Position numbers and translations under genes: made by a program. Of a stretch of 64,000 nt of DNA, positions 51,669 to 54,143 are shown piece after piece (the first letter of the stretch is position 1; the number at the start of each line of letters is the position of its first letter). Origin of the DNA: Candidatus Epulonipiscium sp. (GTDB taxonomy: Bacteria; Bacillota; Clostridia; Lachnospirales; Defluviitaleaceae); the NCBI GenBank assembly GCA_012518815.1, contig JAAYRK010000113.1, positions 1 through 64,000 of the forward strand, in the 5' to 3' direction. Below the pieces are notes generated by a model, which saw only the letters and a list, made by a program, of their open reading frames with translations, made no database searches and was not told the origin of the DNA.

Positions 51669-53117
51669 CTAAAGTATTGGTTGAATGGAAGAACTAGATG
51701 ATTTTAATGAATCAATTGCCTTTTTAAGGATTAAGATTCCTTTTTGAATTTGTTTCTCGTTTACAGCAGCAAAGCTAAGCCGTATATAATTACTAGATTC
51801 TTTTGAAAGAAAAAACAAGGAGCCTGGTGCAATAATTACATTTCTTGATAAAAGCAAATCAGACAGTTTATCTAGGGGGATAGAATTATTTAATTTAATC
51901 CATATACTTAATCCTCCATTAGGAGCTATATAGCTTATTTCATCTTTTAAATGCTCATCAAGTAAGCTAGTCAGACATAGATATCTATTTTTATATATTT
52001 TGCAAATGTCTTTAATATGATTTTTCCAAAGTCCTTTTCTAAGATATAAATCAAAGGCCCTTTGTATAAATCCTGATGTAGTAATATCTGTCGTTTGTTT
52101 TGCTGATAAAATACTAGGCATTAGATTCTTAGGGACAACTAAAAAAGCTAAGCGGAGTCCAGGCATTAATATTTTTGAAAAACTTTTAATGAAAACAACT
52201 CTATTTCTATGATCCAAGGCCTTTAAGGGCACATTTTTTTCATCAGAATAATTTAAATCACTTAAATAGTCATCTTCAATAATATAGGTGTTATATTTTT
52301 CAGCTAAGTCCAATATTGCTCTTTTCTTTTTTAAAGAATAAGAATAACCAGTGGGATTTTGATAATAGGGCATAAGATATATAAATTTTGGATGATAAAT
52401 CTTTAGATAGTTTTCAAGAACTTCCAGGTCCATACCATCAAATTCTAATGTTAGTTCTATGATTCGAGCTCCTCGGCTTTGAAATGCTGCTATTGCACCA
52501 TGATAAGTAGGTTTTTCAACAAATAAAGTATCCCCATATTGCAATAGGGCTTTAGAAAGTATATCTATACCTTGCTGAGCTCCAGATATTACTTGAATTT
52601 TATCTTCTGTAGTAAAAATACCATATGATTTAAGGCAATCCGCAATAGATTCTCGCAGCTTTTCATATCCTTGACTTTCTTGATAGCTAAAAGCATTGCC
52701 CTTATCCCTTTCAAGAATTTCATTTACAATGCTTTTAAAACTTTCTACAGGAAATAAATCAGTACTTGGAGATATACTTGCAAAATTAATGGTATCTTTG
52801 GTCATGGTGATTTGCTTTATTTCTTTTTTTTCTTCGAAAGGAATGGGAGAGGGAGTATTTTCTATAGGAATAGGAGATACATAGGTACCGCTTCCTACTT
52901 GTGCATAAACAACTCCCTTTTTTTCAAGATATTTATATGCATTAACAACAGTTACATTATTAACTTTTAATTTTTTGGCCAGACTACGAATTGTAGGTAG
53001 TTTTGTATTAGCTTTTAAGATATCTTTTTCAATTAAATCATACAAAGAATCTCCTAATTGCTGATAAAGAGGAGTTTTGCTATTTTTATCCAACTGTATC
53101 GATACAAAGTAATCCAT
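51669..53117 (-). CDS. pdxR: MocR/PdxR-type GntR regulator with aminotransferase domain
   Basis: A 482-residue regulator with an N-terminal GntR winged helix (about 1-75; 'TPLYQQLGDSLYDLIEKDIL', 'IRSLAKKLKVNNVTVVNAY') and a C-terminal fold-type I aminotransferase-like domain with 'ISGAQQGIDILSKALLQYGD', 'MPYYQNPTGYSYSL' and the PLP lysine in 'SFSKILMPGLRLAFLV'. PdxR proteins activate pyridoxal-phosphate synthesis genes and sense PLP. It diverges from pdxS, supporting the call. GGAGGA precedes the ATG. A palindrome lies inside its first codons. Confidence 0.88.
   Translation of the reverse strand: MDYFVSIQLDKNSKTPLYQQLGDSLYDLIEKDILKANTKLPTIRSLAKKLKVNNVTVVNAYKYLEKKGVVYAQVGSGTYVSPIPIENTPSPIPFEEKKEIKQITMTKDTINFASISPSTDLFPVESFKSIVNEILERDKGNAFSYQESQGYEKLRESIADCLKSYGIFTTEDKIQVISGAQQGIDILSKALLQYGDTLFVEKPTYHGAIAAFQSRGARIIELTLEFDGMDLEVLENYLKIYHPKFIYLMPYYQNPTGYSYSLKKKRAILDLAEKYNTYIIEDDYLSDLNYSDEKNVPLKALDHRNRVVFIKSFSKILMPGLRLAFLVVPKNLMPSILSAKQTTDITTSGFIQRAFDLYLRKGLWKNHIKDICKIYKNRYLCLTSLLDEHLKDEISYIAPNGGLSIWIKLNNSIPLDKLSDLLLSRNVIIAPGSLFFLSKESSNYIRLSFAAVNEKQIQKGILILKKAIDSLKSSSSSIQPIL
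53095..53106. promoter_or_regulatory. Candidate PdxR operator inside the pdxR coding start
   Basis: The 12-base palindrome TGTATCGATACA lies over about the fifth to eighth codons of pdxR. Its core is identical to that of the longer palindrome at 53206 between pdxR and pdxS. Confidence 0.5.
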
Positions 53118-53205
53118 TCAAAAAAATCCTCCTTTTTTATTGAAGCAAGCTAGTATATAAGTATAATAATGATTATATAAAAATGCATTTTTAATTTATC
53201 CTTAT

Positions 53206-53225
53206 ATATTGTATCGATACAATAT
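53206..53225. promoter_or_regulatory. Candidate PdxR operator between pdxR and pdxS
   Basis: A perfect 20-base palindrome with core TTGTATCGATACAA sits in the divergent intergenic region, 78 bases before pdxS. Together with the copy at 53095 it frames the pdxR promoter region, fitting self-regulation and pdxS activation by PdxR. Confidence 0.6.
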
Positions 53226-53303
53226 TTTATCATACTAATTTTTACATGTCTATTAATTAAGTTGAAGTTTTATTTAAATTTTAAATTATCAAGGAGGCTT
53301 AAA

Positions 53304-54143
53304 ATGAGCAAACAATATAATTTAGATAAAAATTTAGCAGAAAGTTTAAAAGGCGGAGTAATAATGGATGTAACTAATGCAAAAGAAGCAAAGATTGCAC
53401 AAGAGGCAGGAGCAGTAGCGGTAATGGCCTTGGAGAGAGTCCCTGCAGATATAAGGAAAGAAGGGGGAGTGGCAAGAATGTCAGATCCCAAACTGATAAA
53501 AGAAATAAAAGATGCAGTTACTATTCCTGTAATGGCAAAATGCAGAATAGGCCACTTTGTGGAAGCACAAATACTAGAGGCTTTAGAAATTGACTATATT
53601 GATGAAAGTGAAGTTCTAACTCCTGCAGATGATAACTATCATATAGATAAAAAACTTTTTAAGACTCCTTTTGTATGCGGAGCCAGGGATTTAGGAGAAG
53701 CCCTTAGAAGGATAGGAGAAGGAGCTTCTATGATACGGACAAAAGGAGAAGCAGGAACAGGAGACATAGTTCAAGCAGTTAGGCATATGAGGACTATGAT
53801 GGCACAAATTAGGCAATTAAAAAGCATGGCAAAGGAAGAAAGAATGTTCTTTGCAAAGGAAATAGGTGCCCCTTTTCATTTACTCGAAAAAGTAGCTCAG
53901 CTAGGAAAACTTCCTGTAGCCAATTTTGCAGCTGGTGGAATAGCAACACCTGCTGATGCAGCTCTTATGATGCAGTTAGGCAGCGACGGGGTTTTCGTAG
54001 GCTCAGGAATATTTAAATCAGGAAATCCTATAAAAAGAGCAAAGGCAATTGTTGAGGCAGTTAAACATTATGAAAATCCTAAAAAATTAGCAGAGATAGC
54101 TGAGGATTTGGGAGAGGAAATGAAGGGGGAAGCTAGAGCATAG
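53304..54143 (+). CDS. pdxS: Pyridoxal 5'-phosphate synthase, lyase subunit PdxS
   Basis: PdxS builds PLP from ribose 5-phosphate, glyceraldehyde 3-phosphate and ammonia supplied by the PdxT glutaminase. About 279 residues of highly conserved TIM barrel: '[20 protein letters not shown]', '[10 protein letters not shown]', the catalytic lysine in '[12 protein letters not shown]' and '[15 protein letters not shown]'-like '[14 protein letters not shown]'. AGGAGG favours ATG 53304. No pdxT follows; the next gene is an unrelated ATPase 218 bases away. Confidence 0.96.

Follow-up and report, generated by a model that had tools for sequence, protein, structure and literature searches.

Introduction

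Why should a palindrome of the operator type lie among the first codons of a regulatory gene, with an exact second copy in the intergenic region between that gene and its divergent neighbour? The question is raised by the pdxR–pdxS locus of Candidatus Epulonipiscium sp. (assembly GCA_012518815.1, contig JAAYRK010000113.1), which was analysed as part of a stretch of 64,000 nucleotides, referred to below as the window. The palindrome in the gene is designated U and the intergenic palindrome D. In a first-pass annotation the pair had been read as a unit serving looping or roadblock autoregulation of pdxR.

According to the excerpts of PMC5320631 and PMC11619246, low PLP leads PdxR proteins to switch on the target and to repress pdxR; in the latter excerpt the repression of pdxR is described as modest and B6-independent, and in the former Listeria PdxR is reported to bind inverted repeats.

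Gene assignment

The genes pdxR (51669–53117, minus strand) and pdxS (53304–54143, plus strand) are divergent. The product of pdxR was assigned by its match to the NCBIfam PdxR equivalog NF052282 (383 bits; cut-off 320), which was also matched by the proteins of the relatives G564, G014 and G032 (378, 373 and 363 bits). Both domains of a MocR-type regulator, a GntR domain (Pfam GntR, 48 bits) and a class I aminotransferase domain (Aminotran_1_2, 109 bits), were present. The motif SFSK-ILMPG of PdxR aligns with TFSK-ILAPG of solved aminotransferases, and its SFSK lysine may be the one that holds PLP in the aminotransferase fold. The product of pdxS, the lyase subunit of pyridoxal 5′-phosphate synthase, matched NCBIfam PdxS with 488 bits (cut-off 395). 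The regulator is linked to a PLP synthesis gene, divergent from it and sharing palindromes that recur in relatives.

For pdxT, no match to PF01174 was obtained in this genome (92% complete) or in G001, G003, G014 and G035; weak matches in G004–G007 presumably represent other amidotransferases. Eight genomes with PdxS only are listed in the excerpt of PMC9997740, according to which one subunit may suffice. An apparent loss series was observed, from pdxS-pdxT (G002) through pdxS alone (G000, G001) and pdxS in two frames (G003) to genomes with no pdxS match (G004–G007). The gene pdxR was found throughout this series (G000–G007; loci L018, L015, L016, L017, L020 and L022), and at L020 and L022 it is directly adjoined by the ATPase gene that lies 3′ of pdxS in the window.

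Sequence and rarity of the palindromes

U is the palindrome TGTATCGATACA at 53095–53106 and occupies codons 4–8 of pdxR. D, at 53206–53225 in the pdxR/pdxS intergenic region, is a perfect palindrome of 20 bases, the core of which (53210–53221) is an exact copy of the same 12 bases; neither feature carries a strand assignment. The duplication and the location of one copy within pdxR, both claimed in the first-pass annotation, were thus confirmed, and its separation of 111 bases was corrected to 115 bp from start to start, with 103 bp between the copies. With one palindrome per site, U and D resemble the MocR motifs of two inverted boxes listed for 150 regulons (excerpt of PMC5320631, Table 2). 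They differ from the sites of B. clausii PdxR, which reportedly uses direct and inverted boxes (same excerpt), in being single palindromes beside which no direct-repeat box was noticed by eye.

Across the whole assembly (2,192,165 bases; about 92% complete), TGTATCGATACA has no exact copy other than U and the core of D. With at most one mismatch the sequence was found at 8 places, as against 1 for the reversed control. With at most two mismatches there were 4 matches in the window (shuffle mean 2.07), and since 17 of 100 shuffles reached this number, matches as loose as these are uninformative. The six one-mismatch places outside the locus (L003–L008) were inspected along with their ORFs. Five of them fall within an ORF and one (L003) falls upstream of an ORF that appears by eye to be glycerol-kinase-like; no evident B6 gene was seen at any of them. 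In G000, TTGTATNNATACAA with at most one mismatch occurs at 40 places, compared with 20 for the control; given this excess, additional members of the regulon are possible.

A role at the RNA level was considered and rejected. The predicted pdxR leader is complementary to the in-gene copy and could pair with it, but the fold is ordinary (z −1.04) and, on inspection by eye, such pairing is not conserved in G014, G032, G147 and G082.

Recurrence in related genomes

The pair was sought in relatives, a check that the first-pass annotation had itself proposed, and both sites were found to recur at pdxR in several families. The exact pair was present in 4 of 57 genomes, namely this one, G001 of the same genus and two others from the family. 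In degenerate form, TGTAYNNRTACA-N80..110-TGTAYNNRTACA, the pair was present in 10 of the order's 392 genomes, the reversed pattern in none of the 392. Eight of the ten pairs lie at pdxR or pdxS: five at pdxR/pdxS, one at pdxR/pdxK (G008), one at pdxR (G082) and one upstream of a pdxST unlinked to pdxR (G032). At the G082 locus (L086:1665-3097) a choline-kinase-like gene is divergent from pdxR and is followed by a gene for an ECF transporter S component; the two are perhaps an unusual B6 salvage pair. The other two degenerate pairs (G245 and G350; L089 and L090, family f6) enclose repeat-like sequence.

Thirty PdxR-like loci, including that of the window, were compared. A site at the gene start (at most 3 mismatches) was found at 13 of them, nine of which were used for the geometry counts below; the remaining four, all from genus g4 (G004–G007), were excluded, no D being found there and no target promoter being seen by eye. 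Also outside these counts are three loci with D only (L021, L028, L029) and one with a single palindrome at −55 (L044); at the other 13 loci no palindrome was accepted as a site. A further two loci of f2 (L091, L093) came from another search. A recognisable pair was absent from 4 of 9 f2 PdxR relatives of 42–47% identity; two of the f2 loci lacking it (L094, L095) carry, by eye, a D-like TTGTATCGTAACAA.

The family PF08543, which includes pdxK and thiD types, was matched in 16 genomes. Among the 30 PF08543 loci examined, TGTAYNNRTACA was found at pdxK of G013, G032 and G115, with a single occurrence in L122 (G088), and at none of the loci from G000 or g4. G013 also has a perfect palindrome (L068) inside a reading frame that is not evidently a B6 gene. 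The scan of genome contigs yielded one near relative (L009) and one distant match. To judge from this recurrence with PdxR and with B6 genes, U and D are very probably PdxR sites.

Coding constraint on the in-gene copy

A palindrome within a reading frame might be a by-product of a conserved peptide and have no regulatory role. The peptide FVSIQ is indeed present in 9 of the 10 listed PdxR proteins of f1 and f8 (FVSIH in G035), but the V-S-I codons that the palindrome requires have a joint probability of 0.0034 under the codon usage of the window. The serine codon of U, TCG, accounts for 2.0% of serine codons in the window, and it recurs in G000–G003 and G014, whose PdxR proteins are 60–82% identical to the query. 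G564 belongs to a different order of the class; its peptide has VPIQ in place of VSIQ, yet the palindrome (TTGTACCGATACAA) is intact. The by-product reading can therefore hardly be credited; judged by codon choice and by the G564 replacement, U is constrained as DNA, beyond the peptide.

Geometry of U and the target promoter

The best sigma-70-like promoter was sought between the palindromes, reading toward the target gene. For pdxS this is TTGAAG-16-TATAAT (53140–53167, plus strand; start near 53174), the elements TTGAnn and TATAAT of which are present in 6 of 6 aligned relatives; the centre of U falls at about −74 relative to the predicted start. The scores of the target promoters are mostly ordinary for AT-rich DNA (in this region of the window, a promoter scan found 5 promoters, with 4.0 expected), and the constant feature is position. 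The distance from the centre of U to the start of the predicted −35 element was 39–41 bp in 12 of 12 sequences (four from f1, two from f8, five from f2, and the unlinked pdxST of G032). At pdxS of G013, which is on a contig other than that of pdxR, it was 40 bp; at pdxK of the same genome it was 30 bp, one helical turn nearer. At sites located independently of this distance there is thus a constant, phased spacing to the predicted promoter, as expected of an upstream activator site: 39–41 bp in 13 of 14 and 30 bp in one. In shuffled sequences (1000 per sequence) the best promoter fell at 39–41 bp in 2.6–4.3% of cases; the sequences compared are related, and a product of these frequencies would overstate the case. 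Several lineages for the geometry of U are supplied by the unlinked loci together with the three families.

The same data bear on autorepression from within the gene, whereby PdxR bound to U would stop RNA polymerase about 117 bp into pdxR. U does lie downstream of the predicted pdxR start, and in g4, where no pdxS was found, the in-gene site persists with one mismatch; this persistence may reflect no more than the conserved peptide FVSIQ. Against such a roadblock, the offset from the pdxR ATG to U is 8, 11 or 14 bases while that from U to the −35 element is constant, which ties U to the target promoter and not to the pdxR start. Moreover, in G013, whose pdxS is not next to pdxR and has a separate U, pdxR shows no U but keeps D. 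A roadblock is accordingly highly unlikely as the function of U.

In several f2 target promoters (e.g. at L034, L038 and L093) the predicted −10 element is followed by AATACAA, which by eye resembles a palindrome half.

Geometry of D and the pdxR promoter

The promoter predicted for pdxR in the window, TAGACA-17-TAAAAT (53224–53252, minus strand; start near 53217), carries TG ahead of its −10 element, and its score was equalled by only 2 of 1000 shuffles. With predicted starts at 53174 (rightward) and 53217 (leftward), the promoters of pdxS and pdxR face each other. The centre of D is at about +2 of the predicted pdxR start. D lies 0–3 bp after the best pdxR −10 element in 12 of 14 sequences (8–13% of shuffles), and also in G564; in the two exceptions, G147 and G115, it lies 15 bp after the best-scoring −10 element. 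An overlap of D with the −10 element of pdxS, entertained as a candidate, was dropped after comparison of the promoter geometries.

PdxR might instead repress both genes from U and D, with PLP as co-repressor. This would suit the consensus −10 element of pdxS in f1 and f8 and the location of D at about +41 to +44 of the predicted pdxS start in 5 of 6 sequences (+75 in G035). However, the characterised PdxR proteins activate their targets (excerpts of PMC5320631 and PMC11619246), and the f2 target promoters have weak −10 boxes, as expected for activated promoters. Repression of both genes is thus quite improbable.

Spacing of the two sites

The spacing between U and D varies from 99 to 150 bp. 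In G035 it is 32 bases longer than in its sister G014, with the distances from U to its promoter (40) and from D to its promoter (2) unchanged. This bears on looping, in which PdxR dimers on U and D would join and the resulting loop of 10–11 turns would enclose the pdxS promoter and repress or switch both genes; PdxR bridging the two sites would then form a PLP-sensitive switch, choosing which of two opposing polymerases fires, with U in the first codons of pdxR. Most spacings are 104–106 or 115–118 bp, near 10 or 11 turns (Rayleigh p about 0.004 for 13 spacings), but the 13 are not independent, and when thinned to 7 lineages they give p about 0.14; the spacings of 99 and 150 bp are out of phase. 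At the unlinked pdxST of G032 both sites are present, the D-like one 106 bp downstream of U and at about +30 of the predicted start, and the promoter scan found no strong opposing promoter there that would explain it. On the other hand, U occurs with no second palindrome nearby at pdxS of G013, and D occurs without U at pdxR of G013, G058 and G088. We regard a looping switch of this kind as doubtful.

GalR loops DNA between operators at the E. coli gal operon, one upstream and one in the gene, about 11 helical turns apart and with a promoter between them, an arrangement that U and D resemble. GalR belongs to a different protein family, and in the present system the spacing is unconserved, and U and D are locked to separate promoters. 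On this geometry neither roadblock nor looping is necessary. The reading of the pair as a unit of pdxR autoregulation, as first annotated, found no support: U is fixed to the predicted promoter of the divergent target and not to the pdxR start or to D, and it was not seen in pdxR of G013. Looping is possible as an addition, since the unlinked pdxST also has both sites.

Signature search

Within the order, 7 of 385 genomes contained the pattern of U plus promoter, against none for the reversed control; the match is at pdxS or pdxK in six and elsewhere in one (G070). In the class sample it was found in 2 of 291 genomes (reversed control 1): in G564 at a pdxR/pdxS divergon that carries both palindromes (its pdxS was recognised by eye), and in G532 before a gene for an ECF transporter S component. 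The pattern demands a 14-base palindrome and a fixed form of the −35 and −10 elements and misses several of the geometry loci, that of the window included. Because the distance is built into the pattern that yielded G564 and G532, the identities of their genes are independent support and their distances are not.

Proposed mechanism

The joint best explanation, to which we assign a probability of about 0.62, is that PdxR activates pdxS from U, within pdxR, and represses its own gene from D. Under PLP shortage both sites would be occupied by apo-PdxR, so that pdxS would be activated and pdxR held in check; PLP would free the regulator from both. U would act from upstream, on a constant face of the helix relative to the divergent pdxS promoter, and D, spanning the predicted pdxR transcription start, would mediate autorepression. 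The geometry fits the known roles of PdxR, a position about 74 bp upstream of the pdxS start being suitable for activation and one over the pdxR start for repression. U would lie in coding sequence because the compact divergon puts the activating position of pdxS there. Each transcript would run through the opposing promoter, and shut-off of pdxR at D would also clear the path for pdxS. The sequences, their conservation and their geometry relative to predicted promoters are observed; the promoters themselves, PdxR binding, the sign of control and the effect of PLP are inferred. Three findings sit less easily with activation from U: the consensus −10 element of pdxS, with no obvious need of an activator, the D-like site at pdxST of G032, and the in-gene site kept in g4 with no pdxS match.

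In the PdxR divergons of Listeria, Streptococcus, C. glutamicum and B. clausii a MocR-type regulator likewise stands beside a pdxST or pdxKU operon, with target activation and pdxR repression reported (PMC5320631). In the excerpts their sites are put in the common intergenic region, and none is described with a site in pdxR, face-to-face promoters or this palindrome. The sequence TTGTATCGATACAA was not found in the partially covered literature searched. An in-gene PdxR site was not described in the titles and abstract openings from PdxR or MocR searches (looping, inverted repeats, DNA recognition), a result that is no proof of unpublished status. On sequence grounds the locus would be a variant of the known PdxR divergon, with an activation site in pdxR and facing promoters, both absent from the literature searched.

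Conclusions

The pairing of sites is seen again beside pdxS, beside pdxK and at a pdxST unlinked to pdxR, and it extends to a second order. A palindrome followed by a −35 element about 40 bp on would give a searchable signature of PdxR-activated promoters in Clostridia. The locus offers a clean test of how a MocR protein contacts RNA polymerase, the geometry suggesting dependence on the helical face. The first codons of pdxR would have to serve both the protein and the promoter of its neighbour, hence an operator in coding sequence.
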